A stretch of DNA of 64,000 nucleotides, taken from Clostridia bacterium. GTDB lineage: Bacteria; Bacillota; Clostridia; Christensenellales; Aristaeellaceae. The notes below the pieces were generated by a model, which was not told where the DNA came from, did no database searches, and saw nothing but the letters and a program-made list of their open reading frames with translations. The stretch covers positions 1 through 64,000 of the forward strand of contig JAGBFR010000047.1 in NCBI GenBank assembly GCA_017936375.1. Reading direction: 5' to 3'. Below, in pieces: positions 1 through 16,891 of this stretch (position 1 is its first letter; every line of letters begins with the position of its first letter). The position numbers and the translations under genes are program-made.

Positions 1-27
1 AACGGGGAGGGTTTTTTACTATAACAT

Positions 28-53
28 AATAAAACCTTCCCCTTTGGGGAAGG
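28..53 (-). terminator. Terminator of the lipoprotein gene, part of a dispersed repeat
   Basis: Read on the minus strand, an 8-bp stem (CCTTCCCC/GGGGAAGG) is followed by TTTTATT. It lies about 50 bp past the lipoprotein stop. The same hairpin recurs elsewhere in the window as part of a repeat family. Confidence 0.65.
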
Positions 54-96
54 TGGCTTGCCGTAAGGCGAGACGGATGAGGTCTCGCCCGCAGGC
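31..96 (+). repeat. Dispersed hairpin repeat, copy 1
   Basis: The unit is a CCTTCCCC/GGGGAAGG hairpin, then GGTGG, a short GC segment, GGCGAGACGGATGAGG and a GCCCGCAGGCG tail. Related copies lie at 10881-10945 (same strand), 6211-6365 (opposite strand, expanded) and 12340-12385 (divergent). All are between genes. Confidence 0.75.
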
Positions 97-104
97 GTGG
101 ATGC

Positions 105-884
105 TTATTGAGCAAAGACAATGTCCTCGCGCAGCCGGTAGATTGTCGCGCCGTACTTCCTGCGGCAGAAGGCGTCGATGAACCAGTCGATCTCCTTTTC
201 TGCGTCGTACTGCACGTAGGCGTAGCGCTCGCCGTTTACCGTTTTGCCCTTCATGTTGGAGTCCGCCCAGAGGACGGTATCCGTCTCGGGGTTGTAGTCG
301 GCGGTAAAGAGCATGCTGTGCGCGCCGATGCCGTAGTAGTAGTTGGCTGCCATCTGGAAGTAGTCGCCGCGCTGTACCTGCATGAGGAACTCGCGGGCCA
401 GCTGGCGGTTTTCGTCCTTCGTCAGCGTGTCGTCGTAGCGGAAAGCCGCCGCGGCGTAGAAGGGATTGCCCTCGCTGGCGGGGACGTCCTGCCACTCCAC
501 GCCGTAAACGTAGGGCGCGCAGTCCGCCTTCTTCTGATTGTTGGGGATGACGAGATCCACGTCCGGGTACTCCGCCATGCGGAAGTCATCCTTGACGGAC
601 TTAAAGAGATGGACGGTAAAGTTCTTGCAGACGTAGATGTCGCCGGAGTAGTGCGCGCGCTTGGCCTTGCCGCCGGCCTGATCGTAGAGCTCCTTGGCGG
701 TAGACAGGATGCGGTCGATCATTTCCTCCCGCGCGGATTCATCCGGCATTTCTGCGGCGGTTTCTTCCCAGCTTGCGGCTTCCTGCGCAGCGCTCATCTC
801 CTCAAGGGAGAGGGACTCGGCAGATGCGCTGCACGCGGACAGCAGAAGAAAGACGAGCAGACATATGGTAAAGAATCGTTTCAT
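105..884 (-). CDS. Putative lipoprotein with a Cys-His-Asp pattern, function unknown
   Basis: This 259-residue protein has a lipoprotein signal: positively charged start, hydrophobic core, and lipobox L15-S16-A17-C18. It should be lipid-anchored outside the membrane. A Glu/Ala-rich linker runs to about residue 60. The C-terminal part is globular and carries C86 (YVCKNF), H189 (GAHSML) and D208/N210 (WADSN). That order and spacing are reminiscent of NlpC/P60 or CHAP-type cysteine peptidases, but this is inference from pattern alone and I do not recognise the family. It is monocistronic, with its own promoter (916-944) and a terminator hairpin beyond the stop. Confidence 0.7.
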   Translation of the reverse strand: MKRFFTICLLVFLLLSACSASAESLSLEEMSAAQEAASWEETAAEMPDESAREEMIDRILSTAKELYDQAGGKAKRAHYSGDIYVCKNFTVHLFKSVKDDFRMAEYPDVDLVIPNNQKKADCAPYVYGVEWQDVPASEGNPFYAAAAFRYDDTLTKDENRQLAREFLMQVQRGDYFQMAANYYYGIGAHSMLFTADYNPETDTVLWADSNMKGKTVNGERYAYVQYDAEKEIDWFIDAFCRRKYGATIYRLREDIVFAQ

Positions 885-915
885 TCGCTAAACCTCGCTT
901 TGATGGAGTATACCC

Positions 916-944
916 ATTGTATCATGTGCGGGGGTGAAAAGCAA
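916..944 (-). promoter_or_regulatory. Promoter of the lipoprotein gene
   Basis: Minus-strand TTGCTT, 17-bp spacer, TACAAT, 32 bp upstream of the start codon. Confidence 0.55.
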
Positions 945-999
945 TGAGGACGGCAGTTGCATAACAACCTGAAAACACAAATTGTTTGTGTGGATTGAG

Positions 1000-1028
1000 T
1001 TGACGAAACGACCAAAACGTGGTAACAT
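1000..1028 (+). promoter_or_regulatory. Promoter of the tetR-type gene
   Basis: TTGACG, 17-bp spacer, TAACAT, followed by a strong ribosome site (AAGGGGGGTG) before the ATG at 1067. Confidence 0.6.
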
Positions 1029-1066
1029 AAGTCGAACAACAATGATCATATAAGGGGGGTGAAACA

Positions 1067-1621
1067 ATGCCGCCGAAACAGAGAATCACCAGAGAGATGA
1101 TTCTGGAGACGTCATTTGCCATGTTCTGCCGCGATGGTATGGAAGTGGTCAACGCCCGTTCTGTTGCAAAGGCATTGAACTGCTCTACGCAGCCGATTTT
1201 CAGCTACTACGCCGGTATGGACGATCTGAAAGGCGCGCTGGAGAACAAGGCGCGCGAGCTGTTTGAGGCGGGGATTGCCGCTGCAATTGAAAGCGACAAG
1301 CCGCTGTATAACGGATGCATGGCGTATTTTCAGTTCGCGATGAAGCAGCCGAATCTGTTCCGCCAGATGTTCCTGCTCAAGCGGGACAAGTGCCCGGACA
1401 GCCTGATGGCCATCAACGATGCGCTGCGCACCAAGGTTGTTCTGCCGCTGGCGGAGAAGACCGGCGTGGATGCCGCGCAGGTGGAGACGCGCTGCGTCAA
1501 GCTCTGGGTGTTTACCCATGGCCTTGCGTCGCTGGCCGCGATGGGCCTGCTCGATATGAGCGAGGAGACCGTCGTGGAGATGATCAACGAAGCTGCGCAG
1601 AACTACGCGATCATCGACTGA
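1067..1621 (+). CDS. TetR-family transcriptional regulator
   Basis: The 184-residue protein has the TetR layout. A three-helix DNA-binding domain occupies about residues 8-52 (ILETSFAMFCRDGMEVVNAR, then a recognition helix ending in QPIFSYYAGMDDLK). A helical ligand-binding C-terminal domain follows. The start is fixed by a strong ribosome site 6 bp upstream. It stands alone and converges on the carrier-protein gene of the Dlt-like locus, with which it shares a two-way terminator. The target and ligand cannot be read from the sequence. Control of the adjacent locus is possible but unproven because the genes converge rather than diverge. Confidence 0.85.
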   Translation: MPPKQRITREMILETSFAMFCRDGMEVVNARSVAKALNCSTQPIFSYYAGMDDLKGALENKARELFEAGIAAAIESDKPLYNGCMAYFQFAMKQPNLFRQMFLLKRDKCPDSLMAINDALRTKVVLPLAEKTGVDAAQVETRCVKLWVFTHGLASLAAMGLLDMSEETVVEMINEAAQNYAIID

Positions 1622-1636
1622 GTGTGAAACAAAGAA

Positions 1637-1664
1637 ACGGGAGAGCGTTTGCTCTCCCGTTTTG
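1637..1664. terminator. Bidirectional terminator between tetR and the carrier-protein gene
   Basis: A 10-bp perfect stem (ACGGGAGAGC/GCTCTCCCGT) with a 4-nt loop is flanked by T-rich tracts in both directions. It ends the tetR transcript and the convergent Dlt-like operon. Confidence 0.85.
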
Positions 1665-1670
1665 CTTTGC

Positions 1671-1901
1671 TTACTCTTCGAGCAGGCGCTCCACCATGGC
1701 GACCATGGCGTCCACGCTGTTGAAGTTGGCCGGAATGATCTCCGTCGCCGGGATGGTCACGTCGAACTCGTCGCTCAGCGCGCCGATGAGCTGGATGATG
1801 TCGAGAGAGGAGAGCTCGCCGTCGTCGATGAGGGTGGTGCAGGACTCAAAGTCCACGCCGTCTACGAGATCGTTCAGGATGTCAATGATGGTCTCTTTCA
1901 T
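1671..1901 (-). CDS. Acyl/aminoacyl carrier protein (DltC/ACP-like)
   Basis: This 76-residue acidic protein has the four-helix carrier-protein pattern. The phosphopantetheine attachment site is S32 in GELSSLDIIQL. The start follows AAAGGAG by 8 bp. It is the last gene of the minus-strand locus, 14 bp after the PLP decarboxylase. With the upstream adenylating ligase it should form a DltA-DltC-type loading pair: the ligase activates an amino acid and loads it on the carrier's thiol. It could instead serve an unrelated acyl group. The adjacent ligase and MBOAT make aminoacyl or acyl delivery to a surface polymer most likely. Confidence 0.85.
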   Translation of the reverse strand: MKETIIDILNDLVDGVDFESCTTLIDDGELSSLDIIQLIGALSDEFDVTIPATEIIPANFNSVDAMVAMVERLLEE

Positions 1902-1915
1902 GATGATTACTCCTT

Positions 1916-3097
1916 TTATCTGAATTGATTTTGATTGAGCTGGGAAGTGTGGATGGTGTCGCGGACGAGCACGTCGCCGCTTTCGGTATGCAAAAGGATG
2001 CGCGGCATGTCGCGGCTGAGGAACAGCGCCGGGCCTTCGGTGACCGAGTATGCGCCGATGCGGGTGAAGCAGAGCACATCGCCTACCGCCAGCGGCGGCA
2101 GGTTCGCCTTGCGCACGAGCACGTCCGCCGTGGTGCACAGGCTGCCGCAGAGCATGACGTCCTCGTTTTCGCCGCCCGTGTGATCCGGGCCGGGGAAGTG
2201 CAGGATATGCGGTACGCGCATGCCCATGTTGGAGCCGAGGTAGTTGACATGGTGCATACCGCCGTCGATGATCGCGTAGCGGCTGCCCTTGTTGGTCTTG
2301 GCGTCCGCCACGGCGGTCAGGTAGTAGCCGCATTCAGACGCGAAGAAGCGGCCCATCTCCACCGTCAGGTGGAACCTCTCGCCGAGCGCCTTGAGGTCCG
2401 GCGCCAGTTCGCGGACGGGTGCGAGGGTATCGCTGTCGTCCTCGTGGGTGAAGTAGGGGAAGTAAAGGCCCGGGCCGTACTCGAGCTTTTGTACCTCAAA
2501 GCCGTAGTCGGACTTGAGGGCGTCACACAGCGCGCAGATCGCCTCGATCTCCTTGCGCTGCTCGGTGAGCTTCTTGCGCTGGGTACCGGCGAAGTAGTGG
2601 ATGCCGACGATGGAAAGGTGCGGCGTGGCCGCCTGATTCTCAATCGCCGCGCGCAGGTCGCTTTCGTCCATGCCGAACTGCGTGCCCGCCGTCAGGCGAA
2701 GCAGAACGCAGAGCGTCACGCTGCGCAGGGAAGCGGCCTCTTCAAGCAGCTTCACATGCAGCGGAGACTCGGCGGTGAAATCGCGCACGCCGTAATCGAT
2801 CGCCTCAAGAATGTCAGAAAGCGTCTTGTTCACGCCGGAGACGAGCACGGTCTCGGGCGCGACCTTCGTGTCCATGCAGATTTGCATTTCGCCCGGGCTG
2901 CACACCTCGAGCTTCTCGGTGAGTGCGCTCATCGCGGGCAGCAGGAACGGGTTGGCCTTGATCGAGTAGCACAGGTGGACGTTTTCGCCCACGATTTCCT
3001 TGATCTCGCGCATGCGGCTTTCAAGCATCACCGTGTCAAACACGAAGCTGGGCGTGCCGTACTGCTGCGCGACAGAGAACAGCTGGCTCTTATCCAT
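1916..3097 (-). CDS. PLP-dependent decarboxylase of the DAP/ornithine fold-III family
   Basis: The 393-residue protein is an alanine-racemase-fold decarboxylase. Visible landmarks are the Schiff-base lysine K47 (CYSIKANP), GIHYFAGTQ (PLP-facing His), EMGRFFAS where DAP decarboxylases have EPGR, and the partner-subunit cysteine C321 in CGSLCTTADVL. It overlaps the ligase gene by 8 bp (ATGGATAA) and lies 14 bp before the carrier gene, so the three are translated together. The EPGR change and the context argue against housekeeping LysA. The closest functional parallel I know is BtrK of butirosin synthesis, which decarboxylates a glutamyl group while it is bound to a carrier protein. That role is inference here. 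Confidence 0.8.
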   Translation of the reverse strand: MDKSQLFSVAQQYGTPSFVFDTVMLESRMREIKEIVGENVHLCYSIKANPFLLPAMSALTEKLEVCSPGEMQICMDTKVAPETVLVSGVNKTLSDILEAIDYGVRDFTAESPLHVKLLEEAASLRSVTLCVLLRLTAGTQFGMDESDLRAAIENQAATPHLSIVGIHYFAGTQRKKLTEQRKEIEAICALCDALKSDYGFEVQKLEYGPGLYFPYFTHEDDSDTLAPVRELAPDLKALGERFHLTVEMGRFFASECGYYLTAVADAKTNKGSRYAIIDGGMHHVNYLGSNMGMRVPHILHFPGPDHTGGENEDVMLCGSLCTTADVLVRKANLPPLAVGDVLCFTRIGAYSVTEGPALFLSRDMPRILLHTESGDVLVRDTIHTSQLNQNQFR

Positions 3098-4622
3098 TGC
3101 GCTTCCCCTTTCTCGCGGCGTAGATTTCCATCAGCGCGGCGCGGTCGATCTTGCCGTTCTTGGTCAGCGGCATGGCCTCCACCTGTACAAAGATGTTGGG
3201 GATCATGTACGCGGGCAGGGTCACCTTGAGCGCCTCGACGATGTCGTTCTTTTCCACCGTGCCGGTGTAGAACGCGAGGATCTTGCCTTTGTCGTGCTGG
3301 TAGATGCACAGCGCGCGGTCAACGCCCTCGACGGCGGAGAGGTGAGACTCGATCTCGCCCAGCTCGATGCGGTGGCCCATGTGCTTGATCTGGAAGTCCT
3401 TGCGGGAGACGTAGACCATGTTGCCGGCCTCGTCCAGGCGAACGAGGTCGCCCGTGCGGTAGATGGTCTCCTGGCAGGCCTTGTTCAGCGGGTTCTGGAT
3501 GAACACCTGCGCGGTCTTCGCCGGATCGCCGAAGTAGCCAAGCGCCAGCGCGGTGCCGCTCACGCAGAGCTCGCCCACGCCGCCGGCCTGCGTGACTTCC
3601 TTGTCGTTTTCATCCAGCAGGATGATGCGCTCGTTGGGGAACGGGATGCCGATGGGCAGCGCCTCGCCGACCTCGTAAGGCCTGTCCACGACGTAGTAGG
3701 TGCAGTTGCAGGTGATCTCCGTCGGACCGTAGAGGTTGACATAGGTGACGTCCGGCAGGTACTTCTGCAGCTTGAGCAGATGCTTGATCGGCATGACCTC
3801 GCCGGAGAACATGATCGCGCGCAGGTGCTCGGGCTTCCTGTATTCGATGGCGTTCATCGTCGTCAGGAAGCACAGCGCGCTCACCGCCCAGACGAGGACG
3901 GTGCTCTTCTTCTCGCAGATGAAGTCCATGAGCTTGGTCGGGTTGGTGAAGTACGCGGTCGGGATGATCGCGACCTCCGCGCCGGTCATCACGCCGCTGT
4001 AGATGTCCTTGACGGAGACGTCAAAGTCAAACGGCGCCTGATTGGCCAGCACGTCGCGCTCCGTGATCCCAAAGATCTCGGTGAAGCAGGAGATAAAGTC
4101 GATCACGCTCCTGTGGCAGACGACGACGCCTTTGGGCGTGCCGGTGGAGCCGGAGGTGAAGTTGACGTAGAGCGGGTCGACGTCCAGCATCTGCGCGCGC
4201 ACGCGGGCGAGCGCGGCCTCGTCGGTCTCGCTCTTCAGCAGATCCTCGAGGTAGAGGATCTCGTACGGCACGTCCATCGCCTCGAGCGCCGCGCCGTGCT
4301 CGCGGTCGGTGACGACGACGGGGCAGGCGAGGGTATCGAGGATCGCGCGGATGCGCACGGCGGGGTGGCGCAGGTTCAGCTGGGAATAGGCGCAGCCGGC
4401 GTACATCGCGCCGAAGAAGCCGGCGGCGGTGGCCACGCTCTTGTCCATATAGAAGCCCACGACGCTGCGCGGGCCGACCTTCGCGCTCAGCGCACTGCCC
4501 ACGGCGCGCGCGGCGGCGGCGAACTGGGCAAAGGTCATGGACGTATCCGCGTCGGAGAAGGCGGTCTTGTCCGGCAGGCGGGCGGCGGTCGCCTCAAGAT
4601 AATCAAGAATCAGCGTTTTCAT
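3090..4622 (-). CDS. Amino acid-adenylating ligase, DltA-like (AMP-binding superfamily)
   Basis: The 510-residue protein has all core adenylation motifs: phosphate loop TSGSTGTPKG (about 156-165), QAPFDFDVSVKD as in DltA, NLYGPTEIT, YRTGDLVR, and the C-terminal catalytic lysine in TKNGKIDRAA. It should use ATP to activate an amino acid (or small acid) and load it on the carrier protein at 1671-1901. The start at 4622 follows AAGGAG. A longer upstream reading frame lacks a ribosome site and would include the promoter. A strong promoter at 4704-4732 lets ligase, decarboxylase and carrier be expressed apart from the upstream genes. The substrate is not assignable by eye. Confidence 0.88.
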   Translation of the reverse strand: MKTLILDYLEATAARLPDKTAFSDADTSMTFAQFAAAARAVGSALSAKVGPRSVVGFYMDKSVATAAGFFGAMYAGCAYSQLNLRHPAVRIRAILDTLACPVVVTDREHGAALEAMDVPYEILYLEDLLKSETDEAALARVRAQMLDVDPLYVNFTSGSTGTPKGVVVCHRSVIDFISCFTEIFGITERDVLANQAPFDFDVSVKDIYSGVMTGAEVAIIPTAYFTNPTKLMDFICEKKSTVLVWAVSALCFLTTMNAIEYRKPEHLRAIMFSGEVMPIKHLLKLQKYLPDVTYVNLYGPTEITCNCTYYVVDRPYEVGEALPIGIPFPNERIILLDENDKEVTQAGGVGELCVSGTALALGYFGDPAKTAQVFIQNPLNKACQETIYRTGDLVRLDEAGNMVYVSRKDFQIKHMGHRIELGEIESHLSAVEGVDRALCIYQHDKGKILAFYTGTVEKNDIVEALKVTLPAYMIPNIFVQVEAMPLTKNGKIDRAALMEIYAARKGKRNG

Positions 4623-4703
4623 GTTCTGCTCCTTGCTAGCGTTCCTTGAAAAAAGCGGGCGGCGACCGGTTCCGGCGCGCAGCCCGCAGACTTGTCTTAT
4701 GTT

Positions 4704-4732
4704 ATTATACCGTATAAGATTCGTGGATTCAA
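4704..4732 (-). promoter_or_regulatory. Promoter of the ligase-decarboxylase-carrier genes
   Basis: Minus-strand TTGAAT, 17-bp spacer, perfect TATAAT, between the third DHHW gene and the ligase gene. It could uncouple the cytoplasmic loading module from the membrane module. Confidence 0.75.
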
Positions 4733-4762
4733 GGGGTCTGCGCGCGATCACGCAGGATTCAC

Positions 4763-6109
4763 TCACAGCGCCTGCCCCTCGCCGTCAAGCGTCAGATCAT
4801 AGCGGAAGGCGTCGCTGCTGCCCTTCGCCCGGCCGCGCACGCGCACGCGGCTGCCCGGGAGCACGAGCGCCGGGTCGAGGGAAAACTCCGCCTCCGGCGC
4901 ATAGCCGCGCAGCTCGGTCTCGCTCCCGTCCGGCGCGAGCAGGGCAAAGCTGTACTCCGCCTCGACGTTCGCGCCGCGGTTGCTGTCCGCGGTGAGGGCG
5001 ATGCGCCCGTCCCTGCGCCTTGCCGTCGCCCAGACGTTGGTCATGAAGTCGATCTCCGCCAGATAGGCGTAGCGGTTGCGGCAGAAATGCGCGCTTATGT
5101 CCTCGCCCGCGTTGTGCGCGGCGATCACCCGGCCCACGGCGGCGGACAGGATATCCGCGCCCTCGGCGAGCATGTGGTGATAGTCGTAGTAGTAGCCGTT
5201 CAGGTCGGGCAGGAGGCTCTCCTTCGCGTAGAGCATGTTGTAGCAGGGGATGCCCTCCTCGGCAAAGAAGGCCTGCGCGCTGTCCAGATAGGTGAGCCGC
5301 TCCGGCTCGCGCAGCATGGTCACGGTCATCTCCGGGGCGATCACGACGGTGAGCTTCGCGCCGTTGTCCTCGCACAGGTCGCGGTACTCGCGCAGCCATG
5401 CGCGCGTCTGATCCATGAGCTCGTAGTAGTTGCCCGTCTCCACGCGGATGAACCAGTCCTGCGTGTCCTCGGTGACAGGGTCGGCGCGCTCGATGCGCAG
5501 CTGCCCGCGGTGAAAGGCGTATTCGCCCGCCCACTCTCTTTCGGCGGCCCGCGCTGCGCCGTCGTGATCCGCGCGGAAGCGGATCGTCTTGGCGAAGTCC
5601 TTCGCGTCCTGATGGCCGAATGTATTCATCAGCAGCAGCCGCCCGGCGTAGTCGCCGTCGCAGGCGGCCGTCTCCAGCCAGTAGGTCATGCGGTCGATAG
5701 GGCTTGACAGGTGCGGCGCGAGCTTCATCTGCGTCATCGGGTCTTCCTTTACCGTGTCAAACGAGCCGCTCTCCAGCACCAGAACGATCTGCTCCGGCGA
5801 GGCATGGCGGAAGAGCTCGCGCGTGAGCGCCTTCGCGCCCGGGGGCATGAGGCCCGTGATGGCGGCGGTGACGGTCTTCATGCCCGCGGCCTCGCCGATG
5901 ATCTCCGGGTTCATGTGGTAGAGCGCCATCGAGGAGCCGACGATTGCCAGCTCCGCGTCGCTTTGCTCCCGGATTTCGTGCATCGTCATCGCGGCGACGC
6001 TGTCCGTCTGGGTGAAGAAGGTGTTGCCAAAAAGGAGCAGAGGAATCAGGCCCAGCAGGAAGACGCCGAGCCTGATGATTTTCTTCAGCTGTTCGATGAC
6101 GTGATGCAT
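4763..6109 (-). CDS. DHHW/SGNH-type membrane-anchored protein, paralog 3 (DltD/AlgJ-like)
   Basis: The 448-residue protein has one N-terminal membrane segment (about 11-30). An extracytoplasmic SGNH-hydrolase-like domain follows, with the GSS nucleophile block at 58-60 (AIVGSSMALYHMNP) and the D-x-x-H block in YYYDYHHM. A C-terminal beta-rich domain starts near residue 375. Such proteins (AlgJ/AlgX, DltD) work with MBOAT proteins to move acyl groups onto surface polymers. The start at 6109 follows GGGAGGAC, and a longer frame adds an unlikely leader. Two paralogs lie upstream. A 278-bp gap with a dispersed repeat separates it from the second. Confidence 0.85.
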   Translation of the reverse strand: MHHVIEQLKKIIRLGVFLLGLIPLLLFGNTFFTQTDSVAAMTMHEIREQSDAELAIVGSSMALYHMNPEIIGEAAGMKTVTAAITGLMPPGAKALTRELFRHASPEQIVLVLESGSFDTVKEDPMTQMKLAPHLSSPIDRMTYWLETAACDGDYAGRLLLMNTFGHQDAKDFAKTIRFRADHDGAARAAEREWAGEYAFHRGQLRIERADPVTEDTQDWFIRVETGNYYELMDQTRAWLREYRDLCEDNGAKLTVVIAPEMTVTMLREPERLTYLDSAQAFFAEEGIPCYNMLYAKESLLPDLNGYYYDYHHMLAEGADILSAAVGRVIAAHNAGEDISAHFCRNRYAYLAEIDFMTNVWATARRRDGRIALTADSNRGANVEAEYSFALLAPDGSETELRGYAPEAEFSLDPALVLPGSRVRVRGRAKGSSDAFRYDLTLDGEGQAL

Positions 6110-6210
6110 GTGGTTGTCCTCCCGAACGTGGGGATGCTTTGGTGAAGTCTGATCCGTTATGTCGTCACAGAGAATGGGTGTGTGGAGCGTATACACATGG
6201 CTGCTGCGGC

Positions 6211-6365
6211 AGGAACCTCATCCGTCTCGGCTTCGCCGAGCCACCTTCCCCGGGGAACTCGCATAATCGCCTGACGGCTCCTTGCGATTCCCCACGCTCC
6301 GCCCGCTCTCATCCGCCACAGGCGGCGCGGTCTCCGGTGCCTCTCAGGGGAAGGCTTTTGGGTTT
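6211..6365 (-). repeat. Dispersed hairpin repeat, expanded copy 2
   Basis: The ends match the repeat at 31-96: CCTCATCCGTCTCGGC plus CCACCTTCCCC on one side and GGGGAAGGC on the other. About 80 bp of extra sequence sits inside the hairpin. It lies inside the DHHW gene series. On the gene-sense strand no T-run follows the stem, so it is unlikely to terminate the operon. Confidence 0.65.
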
Positions 6366-6387
6366 AACAGTGATGGGAATAAACGAA

Positions 6388-7713
6388 TTACTTTTCCGGA
6401 ATCTCATACCAGAGCGCCGGGTCCTGCTCGCCATCCAGCACGCGGGCGTAGACGCGCACCGTGCCGCCCTTGATCTGATCGGGCGTCACGTCGAGGCGGC
6501 GGCGCTTGCTGTAGCCGCGCAGCTCGGTCTCCGTGCCGTCCTCATGGCGCAGGACGTAGCGGTACTGCGGGGTGACGTTCGTGCCGCGGTTGCTGTCTGC
6601 CAGCAGCATGAGCGTGCCGTCTCCGTTGTCCCGGATCTCGAACCAGACGTTGGTGATAAAGTCGATAGAGGCGAGGTATTCCGCGCTGTCCCGGTGGAAA
6701 AGGGCGCTTACGTCCTCGCCGGCGATGTGCGCATTGATCACGCGCGCGACGGCGGCGGAGAGGATGTCCGCGCCCTCGCCGACCATGTGATACAGGTCGT
6801 AGTAGAGGTGATCGAGGCGGGGGAGGAGCTCCTCCTTCGCGTACATGAAATTGTAGAACGGGATGCCGCTCTCCTCAAAGAAGCGCGCCGCGCTGTCCAG
6901 ATACGGCAGCACAGCCGGCTCGGCGAGGGCATGGATCGTCAGCGCGGGCAGCGCCACGACGATCAGTTCGCTGCCGTTCGCTTCGACGAGCGCCTTGTAC
7001 TCGAGCAGCTTTTCCTTCGTGTAATCAAAGACCTGATAGTCGTAGCCCGTCTCCACGCGGATGAAGGTCTCGCGCAGCTCGCGGGAGATGTCGCCCATCG
7101 TTTCATGGCGGAGGAAGCCGTCGCTGTAGATCATTTCGCCCTGCCAGCCGTCCTCGATTTCAGCGAAGGTCTTGTCCGTGTTCATGCGCAGGCGCATGGC
7201 GCGGGAAAACTCCTCAAAGCGCTCAAAGCCGAAGGTGTTAAACAGCAGCGCGCGCTCCATGTACTGCCCATCCTGAGCGGCGGTATCCAGCCAGTAGCGG
7301 ATGCGGTCCAGCGGGGAGGAGAGCAGCGGCATCAGCTTCATCTGCGTCTGGATGTCCTCCTTCATGGTGTCAAACGTGTAGGATTCCACCGCGAGGACGG
7401 TGTATTTCGGGCTGTTCGTGCGGTAGAGCTCGCGCGTCAGGGGGATCGCGCCGGCGGGCGAGAGGTTGGTGATCGTCACATCAAAGGCGGTCAGCCCCGT
7501 CTCCTCGGTGAGGATGGCCGGGTTTAAGTGCCGCTGGACGATCGAGGAGCCGACCAGCGCCAGCTCGATGTCCTCGCGCGATTTCATGTCCTTCATCGTC
7601 TTGTAGGCGACGGCGTCCGTCTGCACGAGGAAGGTATTGCCAAAGAGGACGAGCGCGTAGATCCCGGCGAGAAAGAGCGCCAGCAGCGCGATCTTGCGGA
7701 TGGTGGTTTTCAA
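6388..7713 (-). CDS. DHHW/SGNH-type membrane-anchored protein, paralog 2
   Basis: The 441-residue paralog has an N-terminal membrane segment (about 8-25), the GSS block at 55-57 (ALVGSSIVQRHLNP), the catalytic-type D-x-x-H in YYDLYHMVGEGAD, and a C-terminal beta domain. The first His of the DHHW-like motif is Tyr here, but the D-x-x-H dyad is kept. The start appears to be TTG at 7713, with AGGAGG about 9 bp upstream. It begins 19 bp after paralog 1 ends. The three paralogs share the sequence FITNVW and a GY/GYSKR-type junction before the beta domain, which indicates tandem duplication. Confidence 0.85.
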   Translation of the reverse strand: MKTTIRKIALLALFLAGIYALVLFGNTFLVQTDAVAYKTMKDMKSREDIELALVGSSIVQRHLNPAILTEETGLTAFDVTITNLSPAGAIPLTRELYRTNSPKYTVLAVESYTFDTMKEDIQTQMKLMPLLSSPLDRIRYWLDTAAQDGQYMERALLFNTFGFERFEEFSRAMRLRMNTDKTFAEIEDGWQGEMIYSDGFLRHETMGDISRELRETFIRVETGYDYQVFDYTKEKLLEYKALVEANGSELIVVALPALTIHALAEPAVLPYLDSAARFFEESGIPFYNFMYAKEELLPRLDHLYYDLYHMVGEGADILSAAVARVINAHIAGEDVSALFHRDSAEYLASIDFITNVWFEIRDNGDGTLMLLADSNRGTNVTPQYRYVLRHEDGTETELRGYSKRRRLDVTPDQIKGGTVRVYARVLDGEQDPALWYEIPEK

Positions 7714-7732
7714 AAGGCAGCGCCTCCTGCGT

Positions 7733-9115
7733 TCAGCCGGCGGAGATTGGCTCCTCCGGCCCGGTGGATTCGTTGGTGTCGGTCAGTTCGGTCGTGTCGG
7801 TGTATACCGCGCCGTCGGGCTCGTCAAGAGGACGCGCGTAGACGCGGATGCGGTCGCCCTCGCCGATGGCGTCATAGGGGAGGGTATAGACCGTGCGCTT
7901 GCTGTAGCTGCGCAGCGTCGTCTCGCTCCCGTCGGGATGGACGAGCGCGTAGGCGTACTGCGGGGTGACGCCCGTGCCGCGGTTGGAGTAGGCCTTCAGC
8001 CGCCAGCCCTCCTCCGTCCTGCGCACGGTGGCCCAGACGTTGGTGATAAAGTCGAGCGAGGCGAGGTATTCCTCGTCGCTCTGGTAGAAGAGGTGATCGG
8101 TCGCCTCGCCTGCGGCGTGGAGATTAAAGGCTCTGCTGAAGGCCTTGCTCATCGCGTCCGCGCCCGTGCCGTGCATGTGATGCGGGTCGACATAGGTGTG
8201 GTCGAGGTTCGCCATCAGCTCGGGCTTGGCGTAGAGCATGTTGAGGCAGGGTACGCCGATCTCCTCAAGGTACGCGCAGGCGGCCTCCATGTAGGGCAGA
8301 TAGCTCGGGTCGGAGAGCGCCACGCCGGAGAGCACGGGGCTCATGACGGCGATCAGCTTCGCGCCGTTTTTTTCGCACAGGGCCTTGTAGTCAAGCAGGC
8401 GCTCCTTGGAATAGTCAAAGAGCTGGTAGTCGTACCATGTCTCCTCCCGCTCCATGCCGTCGCACAGCGCGCGGCCGATGGCGGGCTCCTCGAGGCGGAC
8501 AAAGCCGTCCCTGTAGAGCATGGTGTTGTCCGTCGCCTCATGCGCGGCGAGGAGTGCGGCCTGCCTGTCTGTGCGCAGGAGGGCGGCCTTCTTCACGTCC
8601 TCCATGGAGGTCATGGGGAAGCTGTTCATCAGCAGCAGGCGGGAGAGGGTTTCGCCGTCCTGCGAGGCGGTGTCCAGCCAGTAGCGCAGGCGGCGCAGCG
8701 GGGAGGAGAGCCGCGGCGCGAGCTTCATCTGCGTCTGCGTGTCCTCTTTGGTCATGTCAAAGGTATAGGGCTCCAGCACGAGCACCACCCACTCGGGGCT
8801 GTTCGTCTCAAAGAGCTGCTCCGTCAGCGCGATCGCGCCGGGGAGGCGCAGGTTGGTGATCGTCGCGCAGAAGGCCGTCAGCCCGGTCTGCTCGGTGATG
8901 ATCTCCGGGTTGAAGTGAAACTCTGCGACCGAGGAGCCGACGATGGCCATCTCGATGTCGCTTCGCTCCTTGACGTCCGCGAGGGTCATGTAGGAGAAGG
9001 TGTCCAGCTGGGTCAGGTATGTATTGCCCAGCAGGATGAGCGCCGGGATCAGGAGGAGGAAGAGCGCGAGGCGCGCCAGCCGCCCGACGGGCAGCTTTGC
9101 AAAGAATTGTTTCAA
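7733..9115 (-). CDS. DHHW/SGNH-type membrane-anchored protein, paralog 1
   Basis: The 460-residue protein has an N-terminal membrane segment (about 12-30), the GSS block at 60-62 (AIVGSSVAEFHFNP) and D-x-x-H in TYVDPHHMHG. I chose the TTG start at 9115 because CTAAGGAG sits 7 bp upstream. The longer ATG frame would run into the MBOAT gene and adds arginine-rich shadow sequence. It starts 17 bp after the MBOAT stop, so the two are co-transcribed. This matches the AlgI-AlgJ and DltB-DltD pairing of a channel-like O-acyltransferase with an SGNH partner. Confidence 0.85.
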   Translation of the reverse strand: MKQFFAKLPVGRLARLALFLLLIPALILLGNTYLTQLDTFSYMTLADVKERSDIEMAIVGSSVAEFHFNPEIITEQTGLTAFCATITNLRLPGAIALTEQLFETNSPEWVVLVLEPYTFDMTKEDTQTQMKLAPRLSSPLRRLRYWLDTASQDGETLSRLLLMNSFPMTSMEDVKKAALLRTDRQAALLAAHEATDNTMLYRDGFVRLEEPAIGRALCDGMEREETWYDYQLFDYSKERLLDYKALCEKNGAKLIAVMSPVLSGVALSDPSYLPYMEAACAYLEEIGVPCLNMLYAKPELMANLDHTYVDPHHMHGTGADAMSKAFSRAFNLHAAGEATDHLFYQSDEEYLASLDFITNVWATVRRTEEGWRLKAYSNRGTGVTPQYAYALVHPDGSETTLRSYSKRTVYTLPYDAIGEGDRIRVYARPLDEPDGAVYTDTTELTDTNESTGPEEPISAG

Positions 9116-9132
9116 GGCTTGCTCCTTAGGAA

Positions 9133-10728
9133 TCAGAACACGGCGTACATGAAGCTGCCGGTGCCGGCGGAATTGCCCACGAACGTCGCCAGCACGAACA
9201 GGATGAACGCATACAGCAGAATCCAGCGCAGCACAAGCGGACGGCTCATGATCCACTCGCGCACCTTCGCCCCGCGCTCCTGCGCGAGGGAGACGAAGAA
9301 GAGGATCGCCGTCGCGATGGCGAGGACGCCGTAGTCGCGCGCGGTCAGGCCCAGCTGCGCCATGAGCGCGCTGTCGGCCAGCTGCGCGGCGTTGAAGCCG
9401 GTAAACGTCTTGCCCAGCATGGCGAAGGCGTCCTGCCAGCGCATCGCCCGGTCAAAGTACCAGCCGATGTTCACGATCACAAACGTGCGCAGGATGCGGA
9501 AGAAGTAGAACCCGCGGGACTTCACCAGCCCCTCGTGCGCGTCGGCGAAGCGCTTGTAGCGCGTCTCCATCAGCGCGCTGAAGGCGAGAATGAGACCGTT
9601 GTACAGGCCCCAGAGGACATAATTCATCTGCGCGCCGTGCCAGATGCCGACGAGGAAGAAGACCAGCACATTGCCCAGCGCCGCCGGGAGCGCACGGGAG
9701 AAGTCCGTGCCAAAGCGATTCTTGCTCGCCTTCGACAGGCGGGAGACCGGCTTGGTCAGCGCGAAGGGATAGAACACATAGTCGCGCATCCAGCTGCCCA
9801 GCGAGATATGCCACCTGCGCCAGAAGTCGCCCAGCGAGACGGCGAAGTACGGGCGCTTGAAGTTGGGCGCGAGGCGCACGCCGAAGAGCTCCGCGATGCC
9901 GGCGACCAGATCGATGCCGCCGGAGAAGTCGCAGTACTGCTGCAGGGAATAAAAGAGCACGGCCAGCATGATCACCGCGCCGCCGTAGGGCTCCTGATGG
10001 TCAAAGACGGCGGCGACCAGCGGCAGCGCGCGGTCGGCGATGACCTTCTTCTTAAAATAGCCCCAGAGCATGAGCAGCAGGCCGCGCTCGATGCCGTCGA
10101 TGTCGAATCGGTGCTCCTTCGCCAGCTCGCCGCCGAGGTGATCGTAGCGGCCGATCGGGCCCTGAATCAGCTGCGGGAAGAAGGAAACGTAGAGCGCAAA
10201 GCGCAGCGGGCTCTTTTCCGGCGCGTACTTTTCATTGTACACATCGATCAGGTAACCCATCGAGCTGAAGGTATAGAACGAGATGCCCAGCGGCAGCAGC
10301 AGCCCGAGCGCGGGGCGCGCGGCCTCGCCGCCGGTAAAGACGGAGGCGATGGAGGCAAAGAGCCCCAGCGTCGGCTCCAGATACTTGAGCACGCCCAAAA
10401 TGAAGAAATTGAGCAGCAGCACGCCGAAGAACCAGCGGCGCTGCCTCGAGCGGACGGCGGCCTTCATCTGCTTGCGCGCCTCGGCGGTCAATTCCGCCTT
10501 CTTCGCCTTGATCTCTGCCTTGCCGTTTTCGCCGATGCGCGCGATGTGCAGCGCGCCGGCCCATGTGGTCAGCGTGGTGATGAGGATAAAGGGGAGCGCG
10601 GTCAGCCCGTGATAGGCGTAGAAGCCGTAGCTCGCCGCCAGCAGAATCAGCCAGCGGAAGCGCAGCGGGCAGACGTAATAGAGCGCGGCGCAGCCGAGCG
10701 CGTAGACGATCATCAGATTCAGCGACAT
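9133..10728 (-). CDS. MBOAT-family O-acyltransferase (AlgI/DltB-like)
   Basis: The 531-residue polytopic membrane protein has both conserved histidine regions of the MBOAT family: FWRRWHISLG (H307) and GIWHGAQMN (H364). PIGRYDHLGG and QQYCDFSGG are also AlgI-like. It should carry an activated acyl or aminoacyl group across the membrane toward the SGNH partners encoded just downstream. A basic cytoplasmic loop (about 65-98) separates the early membrane segments. It is the first gene of the minus-strand locus, after its own promoter (10787-10815) and a GGAAGG ribosome site. The length is typical. Confidence 0.92.
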   Translation of the reverse strand: MSLNLMIVYALGCAALYYVCPLRFRWLILLAASYGFYAYHGLTALPFILITTLTTWAGALHIARIGENGKAEIKAKKAELTAEARKQMKAAVRSRQRRWFFGVLLLNFFILGVLKYLEPTLGLFASIASVFTGGEAARPALGLLLPLGISFYTFSSMGYLIDVYNEKYAPEKSPLRFALYVSFFPQLIQGPIGRYDHLGGELAKEHRFDIDGIERGLLLMLWGYFKKKVIADRALPLVAAVFDHQEPYGGAVIMLAVLFYSLQQYCDFSGGIDLVAGIAELFGVRLAPNFKRPYFAVSLGDFWRRWHISLGSWMRDYVFYPFALTKPVSRLSKASKNRFGTDFSRALPAALGNVLVFFLVGIWHGAQMNYVLWGLYNGLILAFSALMETRYKRFADAHEGLVKSRGFYFFRILRTFVIVNIGWYFDRAMRWQDAFAMLGKTFTGFNAAQLADSALMAQLGLTARDYGVLAIATAILFFVSLAQERGAKVREWIMSRPLVLRWILLYAFILFVLATFVGNSAGTGSFMYAVF

Positions 10729-10786
10729 AACAGAAACCCTTCCTCTTTATATGAAAGATTCATTCGTGCATACATAACCAAATTAC

Positions 10787-10815
10787 ACGATACCATGGGG
10801 CGATGGGTTTGTCAA
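10787..10815 (-). promoter_or_regulatory. Promoter of the MBOAT-DHHW operon
   Basis: Minus-strand TTGACA, 17-bp spacer, TATCGT, about 60 bp before the MBOAT start. Confidence 0.6.
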
Positions 10816-10876
10816 GAGGAACGGCTGCTGATGCGCCCGTTCTCATGCAGGGGAGGGCAGAGCCCCTCTCCTGCAA

Positions 10877-10945
10877 TAAAAAAGCCTTCCCCTGGGAGGG
10901 GAAGGTGGATCGCCGGAGGCGAGACGGATGAGGTTCCCGCCCGCA
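10877..10945 (+). repeat. Dispersed hairpin repeat, copy 3, also terminator of the NifX-like gene
   Basis: The copy closely matches the one at 31-96 (hairpin, GGTGG, GGCGAGACGGATGAGG, GCCCGCAGGCGG). Read on the minus strand, its stem (10885-10905) is followed by six T residues, so it also works as terminator of the adjacent minus-strand gene. It ends 10 bp from that gene's stop. Confidence 0.75.
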
Positions 10946-10954
10946 GGCGGTGCA

Positions 10955-11425
10955 TTACCCGTGGCAGTGGCAGTCGTGGCCGTGCTCGTGGTGATGATCG
11001 TGATCATGGCCGCAGGAGCAGTCGTGGCCGTGCTCGTGATGATGGTCGTGATCATGGCCGCAGCTGCAGTCGTGGCCATGATCATGATCGTGGTGGTGAT
11101 TGCAGTTGGCGGCGGCATTCTGCGGGAGGCGGCCCGCCAGCAGCATGGCGACGGCCTCGTCCGCGCTGCCGTTTACGCCGGCGTAGAGGCTCACATCCGC
11201 CTGATCCAGCGCGATCTGCGCGCCCATGCCGATGCCGCCGCAGATCAGGGTATCCACGCCCAGCTCTTCGAGCAGGCCCGCCAGCGCGCCGTGGCCGCTG
11301 CCGTTGGTGTCGATGATTTCCTGCGCGACGATCTTCTTATCTTCAATGGTGTAGACCTTGAACTGGGCCGTGTGGCCGAAGTGCTGGAAAACATTGCCGT
11401 TTTCATAGGTGACTGCGATCTTCAT
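10955..11425 (-). CDS. NifX/NifB-like cofactor-carrier protein with His/Cys metal-binding tail
   Basis: Residues 1-105 are a dinitrogenase iron-molybdenum cofactor-binding domain (NifX/NafY type): MKIAVTYENG, FGHTAQF, and ICGGIGMGAQIAL. Residues 110-156 hold 22 histidines. They contain two exact 16-residue repeats (117-132 and 133-148, each GHDCSCGHDHDHHHEH) and a third partial one. The tail suggests binding of nickel, zinc or another soft metal. The family is widespread outside nitrogen fixers, and nothing here implies nitrogenase. The gene follows the F420-ligase-like gene by 36 bp, so they are probably co-transcribed. The start follows AAGGAG. Confidence 0.85.
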   Translation of the reverse strand: MKIAVTYENGNVFQHFGHTAQFKVYTIEDKKIVAQEIIDTNGSGHGALAGLLEELGVDTLICGGIGMGAQIALDQADVSLYAGVNGSADEAVAMLLAGRLPQNAAANCNHHHDHDHGHDCSCGHDHDHHHEHGHDCSCGHDHDHHHEHGHDCHCHG

Positions 11426-11461
11426 GATGGTATCTCCTTGTCTTTTTGCGTCATGGCCCGC

Positions 11462-12199
11462 TTACAGCGGACGGATGAGAATGAACGGGGTCAGCTCGTC
11501 GCCCTGGCCGGAGGGGTTGTCCGCCATGGCGTCCTGGATCTGCTCGTCGGTCAGTGGGAACTTCGTGCCCTTGCCCAGCTGGTTCTGGTCAAAGTCGTTG
11601 GCGTCCATGATGACCGTCGGCACGCCGGTGGCGGCCTCAAGCGCGTCGCACAGCTCGACCGGATGCTCCGGGTTGATGACGCCCATCGTGTGATAGACCT
11701 CAAAGGAGGAATCCGGGTAGAAGCCGTCGATGCCCGCGACGTCGTGACCGCAGATCTTGTAGAACAGGCCGCGGATGCCGAACGGACGGGTCACCGCGGA
11801 GACGGCCGCGGCGAAGAGCACGCGCGGCAGGCCGCAGATCTCGATGGTCAATTGCATTTTATAGGGCTGGTGCATGCCGATGCCGGTGGAATTATGCCCG
11901 GCGAAAGGCGCGAGCGTCCTCGCCCAGAAGCCCGGATGCGTGTCCTCGAGCGTGCGCACATTGCCCGTGCACATGCCCATGACCTTCGCCGTGAAGGAGA
12001 GGCAGTCGCCCGGCTGATACAGCGGCAGGATGTAGCGGCGCACGAGCTCCGCCTGATCCTCCCTCGGCTGGACGAAATGCGTCTTGACAGCGAAACGCTG
12101 ATACCTGCGGCCGTCCTTACCTGTCAGGATGCCGCGGTCATAGTAGATCACGCCGTCTTTTTCGCGGCGTGCGGATTCGATATTCTTAGAAGCGCCCAT
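11462..12199 (-). CDS. F420-0:gamma-glutamyl ligase-like protein (CofE family)
   Basis: The 245-residue protein resembles the CofE/FbiB-type ligase domain: FAVKTHFVQPREDQAELVRRY, LPLYQPGDCLSFTAKVMGM, GMHQPYKMQL and VIMDANDFD. CofE adds glutamates to coenzyme F420 using GTP. No other F420 gene is in the window. Many Bacillota carry this homolog without known F420 synthesis, so its substrate is uncertain. A GGGAGGGC ribosome site precedes the ATG at 12199. It is the likely first gene of a two-gene unit with the NifX-like protein. Confidence 0.65.
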   Translation of the reverse strand: MGASKNIESARREKDGVIYYDRGILTGKDGRRYQRFAVKTHFVQPREDQAELVRRYILPLYQPGDCLSFTAKVMGMCTGNVRTLEDTHPGFWARTLAPFAGHNSTGIGMHQPYKMQLTIEICGLPRVLFAAAVSAVTRPFGIRGLFYKICGHDVAGIDGFYPDSSFEVYHTMGVINPEHPVELCDALEAATGVPTVIMDANDFDQNQLGKGTKFPLTDEQIQDAMADNPSGQGDELTPFILIRPL

Positions 12200-12305
12200 A
12201 GGTTGCCCTCCCGGATCATGCTTGCATCAAGGGTTCATCCTCAAGGATGCCCCGGATGCGGCAGAAATAGACATGACGTCTTTGGTATCAACTCATTTTA
12301 CATCA

Positions 12306-12518
12306 GCGCGTGAAGAAAGTCAAATCCTGTATGCAATCTCCCTCCGTCTCGCCTGCAGCGATCCACCTCCCTCCCAGAGGGAGGCATGAAGATGCGTGAC
12401 TTAGTAAACCGGCTGCTGCTTTGCAAAGAGGCGAAGAGGAACAGGCTCCCTCCGGGAGGGAGCTGTCAGCGAAACTGACTGAGGGAGAGGGAGGGCGCGT
12501 GAAGAAAGCCAAATCCTG
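12306..12518. repeat. Repeat-rich intergenic block bounded by a 24-bp direct repeat
   Basis: The 440-bp gap between 12200 and 12640 holds no credible gene. A near-perfect 24-bp direct repeat (GCGCGTGAAGAAAG plus YCAAATCCTG, 23/24 identical) lies at 12306-12329 and 12495-12518. Between the arms are a divergent opposite-strand copy of the dispersed hairpin (about 12340-12385) and a GCTCCCTCC/GGAGGGAGC inverted repeat (12445-12463). The structure looks like a small non-coding mobile element or duplicated intergenic unit. Confidence 0.6.
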
Positions 12519-12539
12519 CGCAAAAAACCCTGTTTCTTC

Positions 12540-12568
12540 TTGACGAATCCGCCGCAAAAGCATATACT
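12540..12568 (+). promoter_or_regulatory. Promoter of the pullulanase gene
   Basis: TTGACG, 17-bp spacer, TATACT, about 70 bp upstream of the pulA start. Confidence 0.7.
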
Positions 12569-12640
12569 GCATATATCGAAACTTTACGAAACGGCATACG
12601 GCGCAGTGCGCGCCGGTGCATCGGGATATCGGAGGACGCC

Positions 12641-14593: not shown

Positions 14594-14698
14594 ACGCAGG
14601 CGCTTTCCACAGGCGCGCTCTATGCTGTTAATAACGATTTTATAAGCATGTACGGCGGATCCTTACGACCGACACCCATCATATAAGGAAGAAAAGCG

Positions 14699-16657: not shown

Positions 16658-16749
16658 ATGGGGAGGTTAACCTGCCTAAATCGCAGGAAAACCCACAAAT
16701 TTTGTCGTTTTGTGTGAATTTTATGCGAAGAATTGGATGGGTTTACACC

Positions 16750-16779
16750 ATGACAGAAACGCCATTCTTCGTGTAAAAT
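16750..16779 (+). promoter_or_regulatory. Promoter of glgP
   Basis: ATGACA, 18-bp spacer, TAAAAT in the 234-bp gap before glgP. It supports placing the start at 16892 and not at an upstream in-frame ATG inside the promoter. Confidence 0.5.
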
Positions 16780-16891
16780 GGTAAATGTTGGAAAATACCA
16801 TGCATTGGAAACGTTCCCGGAATCGGTTTCAACCATGATCTGCGCCGTCCGGGAGATCGATCCTGTCGATAGAGAAAGGAAGATTATATCT

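Follow-up and report, generated by a model that had tools for sequence, protein, structure and literature searches.

What would a pyridoxal 5′-phosphate (PLP) decarboxylase be doing among genes that resemble those of a cell-surface acylation operon? The question is raised by a locus in a 64,000-nucleotide stretch from a Clostridia bacterium (assembly GCA_017936375.1, contig JAGBFR010000047.1, positions 1 to 64,000; hereafter the window), in which seven genes, all on the minus strand, fill positions 1671-10728. They encode a membrane-bound O-acyltransferase (MBOAT), three SGNH-like proteins, an amino-acid adenylating ligase, a decarboxylase of fold type III and a carrier protein. An earlier note on this DNA had described the locus as Dlt-like and, by analogy with BtrK, had proposed that an amino acid is decarboxylated on the carrier before it reaches the surface; the seven same-strand genes, and the 8-bp overlap between the ligase and decarboxylase genes (3090-3097), were confirmed as it had given them. 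The answer favoured here, with moderate confidence, is that the genes form a self-contained surface-acylation pathway in which an acidic amino acid would be loaded onto the carrier and decarboxylated there, the resulting omega-amino acyl group being exported to a surface polymer. The built-in enzyme would probably turn the acidic amino acid into another positively charged group, perhaps beta-alanine, before its attachment outside the cell. The features of the locus are the following.

9133..10728, minus strand: MBOAT acyltransferase of 531 amino acids, with His307 and His364 (PF03062, E 3.5e-14)
9136..9153, minus strand: putative acyl-shuttle hexapeptide FMYAVF at the C-terminus of the MBOAT, containing Tyr528 (motif FxYxxF, identified in the MBOAT alignment; role assigned from PMC12148441)
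7733..9115, minus strand: SGNH-like membrane-anchored protein 1, TTG start, with Ser62, Asp310 and His313 (motif)
6388..7713, minus strand: SGNH-like membrane-anchored protein 2, TTG start (motif)
4763..6109, minus strand: SGNH-like membrane-anchored protein 3 (motif)
3090..4622, minus strand: stand-alone amino-acid adenylating ligase of 510 amino acids (TIGR01733 and PF00501, above cut-off)
1916..3097, minus strand: fold-III PLP decarboxylase of 393 amino acids, with Lys47, Cys321, and CT in place of the CE motif of LysA (Orn_Arg_deC_N, Orn_DAP_Arg_deC)
1671..1901, minus strand: carrier protein of 76 amino acids with phosphopantetheine Ser32 (PP-binding, PF00550)
1631..1660, minus strand: terminator-like hairpin and T-run directly 3′ of the carrier gene (read by eye)

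The intergenic gaps are 14-19 bp long, but those flanking the third SGNH-like gene measure 278 and 140 bp. The ligase gene starts at the ATG at 4622, the longer open reading frame (3090-4766) being an upstream extension only.

Linkage and distribution of the cassette

Titled genome records were scanned with the decarboxylase alignment, which yielded 340 relatives. The best 80 of these 340, a set biased toward close relatives of the window, were kept, and their surroundings were examined up to a distance of 10.5 kb, with MBOAT and SGNH-like genes accepted in either orientation (a few of the opposite-strand MBOATs may represent different members of the family). The best 80 include Butyrivibrio, Roseburia, Gemmiger formicilis, Eubacterium ramulus, Olsenella, Slackia and Candidatus Ventricola. 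Enough flank (at least 7 kb upstream and at least 6 kb downstream) was available for 47 loci, in which the decarboxylase gene was accompanied by a ligase gene in 45, a carrier gene in 44, an MBOAT gene in 42 (same strand in 40) and an SGNH-like gene in 42 (same strand in 37); all five gene kinds were present in 39, and on the same strand in 34. When all 80 loci were counted, contig ends included, the corresponding values were 76, 73, 63 and 65, with all five kinds in 57 (52 on the same strand). In each of the five well-flanked loci that have no adjacent MBOAT gene, an MBOAT 45-56% identical to that of locus L064 is encoded elsewhere in the genome. An even sample of the class gave a similar picture: the decarboxylase was detected at E up to 1e-60 in 14 of 391 genomes (its own included) and in 12 of 223 genera, and among the 13 other genomes a ligase was encoded nearby in 13, a carrier in 12, and both an MBOAT and an SGNH-like protein in 11. 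All five kinds were therefore together in 11 of 13, the misses being a contig end (L124) and a locus near which no MBOAT was found (L134).

The recurrence of the five gene kinds in several groups is more than chance. The linked set occurs in records whose titles name Clostridia, Erysipelotrichaceae and Coriobacteria-type genera, and its conservation extends over at least two phyla. The earlier note had asked for conserved co-occurrence of all seven genes; the conserved unit is a five-gene cassette, and the seven-gene form is lineage-specific. Three SGNH-like genes in a row behind one MBOAT gene were seen, among the near relatives read, only in the window and in a second copy in the same assembly, and the SGNH-like gene, where present, comes in one to four copies per locus. 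Some Olsenella-type loci (L097, L098, L101, L109 and L113) have two MBOAT and three SGNH-like genes around one set of ligase, decarboxylase and carrier genes, as if a single carrier served two export units. In the class sample DltA-type ligases occur in 17 of the 391 genomes and the cassette in 14; no genome has both, but chance alone would give only ∼0.6, so that these numbers do not speak for a replacement of Dlt by the cassette.

The second complete seven-gene copy (L013, G000:C11:3000-22500) lies inside a duplicated syntenic block of the assembly, which is 81% complete. The block on contig C11 holds matches, at 75-98%, to five genes that span 10955-19147 in the window; a 245-amino acid neighbour is 98% identical between the copies and the decarboxylase 67%. 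Ten genomes of the same genus with a match have one system decarboxylase each. Either a large segment was duplicated, or the assembly may combine DNA from two species.

Loading and decarboxylation of the substrate

In the decarboxylase alignment (84 rows) the PLP lysine is kept in 83 rows, with one gap, and the catalytic cysteine in all 84. The residue after this cysteine is Thr in 82 rows and Ser in two (CT or CS), while the LysA encoded elsewhere in the same genome has Glu (CE); neither the CE motif nor the RP-bearing insertion of that LysA was found in any of the 84 system enzymes. A DGGxHH-type stretch reads HH in 29 rows, NH in 54 and HQ in one. On the lysA model TIGR01048 the window's enzyme reaches 162-166 bits against a cut-off of 298, and the separate LysA, which has both the CE motif and the insertion, 284 bits, slightly below the cut-off. 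Ten of 12 other genomes of the genus also have two matches to this model, one at 269-289 and one at 144-176 bits, the lower being at the level of the window's gene; of the remaining two, one has the lower match only and one has neither. The fullest tree (58 rows; LysA fragment L169 and L164 left out) placed 37 system enzymes on one branch (100/100) and 18 LysA rows on another (100/100). A smaller tree, which included L169 and lacked system rows L056 and L079, the genome's own LysA and 2p3e, again kept the system group (100/100) apart from LysA, with BtrK and two exosortase-type enzymes forming a group of their own (82/68). Judged from its sequence, the decarboxylase is not LysA.

These data bear on a lysylation pathway, in which meso-diaminopimelate would be loaded and decarboxylated to a lysyl-carrier, or the decarboxylase would supply lysine to the ligase. 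The score on the lysA model fits this possibility, as does Asp235 of the ligase pocket (see below), which suits an alpha-amino acid. It is nevertheless improbable, given CT or CS for CE and the missing insertion in all 84 enzymes, the genome's own LysA, the separate tree groups of the two enzymes, and a pocket lysine (Lys239) that would be better suited to a short acidic side chain.

BtrK acts on a carrier-bound glutamyl group. It is the best profile match of the decarboxylase among solved structures in the PDB (204 bits), followed by 6knh, named as a probable diaminopimelate decarboxylase (154 bits), and by named diaminopimelate decarboxylases with at most 153 bits; the CT motif and the DGG stretch agree with BtrK as well.

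The ligase scores 336 bits on the adenylation-domain model TIGR01733, above its cut-off of 317, and misses the cut-offs for DltA (278 against 476 bits on NF003417; 268 against 560 on TIGR01734). The ligases of 17 Dlt control loci from the class sample score 483-575 bits, and only three of the 17 pass the strict TIGR01734 cut-off. Residues D201, V202, K205, S273, C305 and N306 of the window ligase correspond to GrsA positions 235, 236, 239, 301, 330 and 331, the assignment of position 239 being tentative. Asp235, Val236, Lys239, Cys330 and Asn331 are present in 72 of 73 family ligases (eight of 80 ligase hits, with open frames below 480 amino acids, having been dropped), the exception being L037, and Ser301 is present in all 73; the class-sample ligases have all six residues in 13 of 13 cases. 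None of the 17 canonical Dlt ligases has this signature, neither Lys239 nor Ser301 occurring in any of them, and no fold-III decarboxylase gene was found in the 17 Dlt control loci (14-kb stretches, all with ligase and MBOAT genes, and with DltD confirmed in the four tested for it). At the columns of B. cereus DltA Leu198 and Cys269, which belong to the D-alanine pocket, the family has Val (72/73) and Ser (73/73), Cys being present in only five of the 17 Dlt controls. The predicted pocket is unlike that of the Dlt ligases and occurs together with the decarboxylase.

As to what such a pocket may hold, Asp235 contacts the substrate amino group, VinN has Ser at position 301, and TycA selected for beta-Phe has V236 (PMC11253843); in VinN, the proposed contacts of the alpha-carboxyl are Ser299 and Arg331 (PMC7756342). 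Two VinN-type features, the Asp for the amino group (72/73) and the Ser at 301 (73/73), are found in the cassette ligases. A positively charged Lys239 next to the constant Asp235 would suit a substrate that bears an additional carboxylate besides its amine. In the carrier, Ser32 is kept in 78 of 78 rows (six of 83 loci gave no carrier hit).

A related ligase-decarboxylase-carrier trio at L037 (G100:C52, 1-9700) has I235 and R239 in its pocket and no MBOAT gene within the 18 kb read. It adjoins glycosyltransferase, CDP-glycerol glycerophosphotransferase-like, hexapeptide and nucleotidyltransferase genes, and would possibly apply the same chemistry to a sugar ahead of export.

The substrate, the decarboxylation on the carrier (that is, the order of the steps), the acceptor and the effect are inferred as follows. 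The ligase would activate the side-chain carboxyl of an acidic amino acid by adenylation, the best guess being L-aspartate and the next glutamate, and load the residue onto the phosphopantetheine of the carrier. No racemase or mutase gene is among the five conserved genes, as would be expected if the substrate were a common metabolite, L-Asp or L-Glu for example. The PLP decarboxylase would then strip the free alpha-carboxyl from the carrier-bound residue, leaving an omega-amino acyl thioester (beta-alanyl, or like gamma-aminobutyrate [GABA]). As a best guess, a beta-alanyl product would take about one half of the weight, a GABA-like one about one fifth, and other products the rest.

Export and the surface acceptor

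When the MBOAT was compared with PDB sequences, DltB alone matched at E up to 0.01 (E 3e-21), and the protein stays below the DltB cut-off (148 against 375 bits on TIGR04091). In an alignment of 64 MBOATs (the window's own and one from each locus that gave a hit, after removal of two fragments among 65 hits), His307 is kept in 64 and His364 in 63 rows. The C-terminus reads FxYxxF in 53, FxYxx[FY] in 59 and Yxx[FY] in 63, the one miss being a broken frame; all 11 class-sample MBOATs end in YxxF, but only two have Phe in the first place of the motif. According to PMC12148441, FxYxxF serves as acyl shuttle both in DltX and in MBOATs of the PatA type. An FxYxx[FY] end was found in none of 17 canonical DltB proteins, one of which (L145) has a loose YxxY, and in all 17 Dlt control loci a separate short, DltX-like frame ends in the shuttle motif. 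Among the frames of at least 30 amino acids in positions 1-12000 of the window, the MBOAT alone ends in the motif, and a separate DltX-like frame was not found.

A hexapeptide borne by the MBOAT itself differs from the Dlt layout and would make the export step concrete. With the help of the MBOAT the omega-amino acyl group would cross the membrane and be taken up by Tyr528 of the FxYxxF peptide that this protein carries, from which it would move to the serine of the SGNH-like partner and be esterified to an outer polymer, adding positive charge. In PMC12148441 Dlt is the exception among MBOAT-SGNH pathways, the others being said to have no carrier protein and to draw on acyl-CoA; the cassette, as read from its genes, combines two designs, the carrier-fed Dlt type and the shuttle-fused MBOAT.

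For the three SGNH-like proteins of the window no Pfam family matched at E up to 0.001, and nothing significant was returned by Pfam, by PDB sequence search or by profile comparison with DltD. PF04914 (DltD) gave no match at E up to 10 within the HMMER filters, while four DltD controls matched at 286-330 bits. The proteins share GxS and DxxH with their relatives: in 106 rows (the window copies included) Ser62 is present in 105, Asp310 in 98 (Asn in six, Thr in two) and His313 in 105. The SGNH/DHHW label proposed earlier for these proteins holds for the two motifs and not for any Pfam family; because no such family matched, 'SGNH-like' here denotes a motif, not a fold. Among the relatives, the C-terminus of L080 matches a Y_Y_Y domain (E 5.6e-6), and L064 weakly matches an AlgX domain (E 0.033).

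An ordinary Dlt D-alanine operon lying beside an unrelated lysA-like gene was also considered. DltA and DltB are indeed among the best-scoring named relatives of the ligase and the MBOAT. This explanation was rejected as highly improbable: the cut-offs for DltA, DltB and DltC were missed (the carrier scores 31 against 68 bits on NF003464), no separate DltX-like frame accompanies the cassette (window positions 1-12000) as it does the 17 controls, the decarboxylase and the pocket signature occur in none of the 17 Dlt loci, the genome's LysA lies elsewhere, the CE motif is absent, the trees set the two enzymes apart, and the cassette genes stay linked across at least two phyla.

Weighing of the pathway and its relation to known systems

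Several results weigh against decarboxylation on the carrier followed by export to a polymer. In the decarboxylase, 14-15 residues before QFG that are present in BtrK, two exosortase-type enzymes and the genome's own LysA are missing in 84 of 84 rows; BtrK falls on the LysA side of the fullest tree (97/83); the sole neighbour of the system group in that tree, without support (89/54), is an exosortase-type enzyme from a Streptomyces plasmid; and the L064 enzyme scores higher on the lysA model (196 bits) than on the exosortase decarboxylase model (186 bits). The one-residue-shorter beta13-beta14 loop and the Arg331 of VinN were not found in the cassette ligases, which show no gap relative to the alpha-type domain compared and have Cys330, and Asn331 in 72 of 73. 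The profile comparison of the SGNH-like proteins with four DltD proteins was not significant (probability 8.5%, E 0.004), the weak alignment superposing the SGNH-like DxxH on that of DltD. Lastly, the flanks have no conserved polymer gene: among the clusters listed, shared flanking genes reflect only local synteny among close relatives, and because of this the cassette is taken to stand alone.

The Streptomyces plasmid enzyme belongs to a cluster (L120, 5959-9904) that encodes a type III PLP enzyme, a holo-acyl carrier protein synthase, a hotdog protein, an AMP-binding protein and a carrier, and adjoins ectoine genes.

Given the position of BtrK in the fullest tree, among LysA and not among the system enzymes, the likeness of the decarboxylase to BtrK is one of score, motif and gene context and not of a shared branch. 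For the same reason confidence in the on-carrier pathway was lowered slightly, as was that in the wider surface chemistry set out below, and a different order of steps was given more weight. In the latter the decarboxylase would act first on a free amino acid (Asp, Glu or beta-Glu, for example), and the ligase would load the resulting omega-amino acid. There is a precedent in incednine synthesis, where IdnL3 decarboxylates free beta-glutamate and IdnL1 takes the product (PMC11284099); moreover, the trees show no tie between the decarboxylase and the carrier-acting BtrK, and the order of steps cannot be told from gene order. This route is still regarded as unlikely, since Lys239 (72/73 and 13/13) would be left with no pocket partner once the second carboxylate was gone, and the best solved match of the decarboxylase acts on a carrier-bound residue, which would point to a similar substrate here.

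The flanks bear on the acceptor. With the same carrier chemistry, the group might end up on a lipid of the membrane, or on a small molecule that is then secreted, instead of a wall or capsule polymer, and flanks with no conserved polymer gene, together with one to four SGNH-like copies that would fit several acceptors, agree with this. Systems that acylate polymers, however, are built in just this way, from a shuttle MBOAT and an SGNH partner (PMC12148441), and the MBOAT-less trio at L037 sits amid polymer-type genes; a lipid or small-molecule acceptor is considered quite unlikely.

Taken with its export step, the favoured pathway would amount to an undescribed surface chemistry in at least two phyla, with beta-alanyl or other omega-amino acyl polymer esters made via on-carrier decarboxylation and exported by an MBOAT uniting Dlt-type loading with a PatA-type tyrosine shuttle. 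This wider claim is put forward tentatively, at somewhat less than even confidence. No description of the gene set was found in the open-access literature searched.

Among known systems, the cassette shares with Dlt (DltA-B-C-D-X) a ligase, a carrier, an MBOAT whose only PDB match is DltB, and an SGNH-like partner; it differs in the pocket, the extra decarboxylase, the fusion of the shuttle to the MBOAT and a partner that is not DltD by family. 'Dlt-like', as the locus had first been called, would thus describe its mode of working and not family membership. In the PatA-PatB/AlgI type, too, the MBOAT ends in an FxYxxF shuttle and the SGNH partner is a protein of its own, but those systems are said (PMC12148441) to be carrier-free and fed by acyl-CoA, whereas here a ligase and a carrier are linked (the carrier in 44/47 and 12/13 loci).

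With BtrI-BtrK of butirosin synthesis the cassette shares a PLP decarboxylase, which there acts on a carrier-bound acidic amino acid and here would do so; that pair serves antibiotic synthesis, and BtrK keeps 14 residues missing here. The analogy drawn in the earlier note survives in that, of the solved relatives, BtrK scores best and every diaminopimelate decarboxylase scores lower, in a genome with a separate LysA, and fails in the tree, where the two enzymes are not next to each other. BtrJ, the butirosin loading enzyme, is of another kind than the cassette ligase.

Similar in plan are VinN-VinL-VinO (vicenistatin), FlvN and, as proposed, BolO-BolC-BolN (bolagladin), in which an adenylating enzyme, a free-standing carrier and a PLP decarboxylase convert an Asp-type substrate into a beta-amino acyl carrier. 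For VinN-VinL-VinO the substrate is loaded by its beta-carboxyl and the thioester forms before decarboxylation, and FlvN is a precedent for Asp (both in PMC11284099); the same route is proposed for BolO-BolC-BolN, BolN being BtrK-like (PMC7756342). Unlike the cassette, they supply polyketide or peptide synthesis, and the VinN loop and Arg331 are not present in its ligase.

In the exosortase A-associated trio (TIGR03098, TIGR03099 and a carrier), ligase and decarboxylase genes are likewise adjacent, with a carrier gene nearby, amid glycosyltransferase genes, but no MBOAT was annotated in the one 13-kb stretch looked at. Membership of the cassette in this group was rejected: it scores 206 bits against a cut-off of 592 for TIGR03098 and 178 against 478 for TIGR03099, one true member reaching 742 and 578. 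AlmE-AlmF-AlmG is not known to include a decarboxylase and has a different acyltransferase. In that lipid A glycylation system, as would be the case here, a ligase and a carrier supply surface aminoacylation (AlmE is named in PMC11253843).

Two further observations concern the surroundings of the cassette. A 44-nucleotide inverted repeat, 89% complementary, has its arms at 6208-6251 (between the second and third SGNH-like genes) and 10898-10941 (upstream of the MBOAT gene). Near the cassette, at 10955-11425, lies a gene for a dinitrogenase iron-molybdenum cofactor domain protein (PF02579), the C-terminus of which is encoded by a 48-nucleotide tandem repeat, is rich in His and Cys, and resembles a metal-binding tail.

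The conserved pocket code makes the question of the substrate directly testable with three small soluble proteins. If the pathway proposed here is correct, gut commensals would have, besides D-alanylation, a second route to positive envelope charge, through a different group and so probably with different stability and recognition. Carrier-fed and shuttle-fused MBOAT systems would then not be exclusive, contrary to the statement in PMC12148441 that non-Dlt MBOAT-SGNH pathways lack a carrier, and on-carrier decarboxylation would have been carried from natural-product synthesis to the cell surface.

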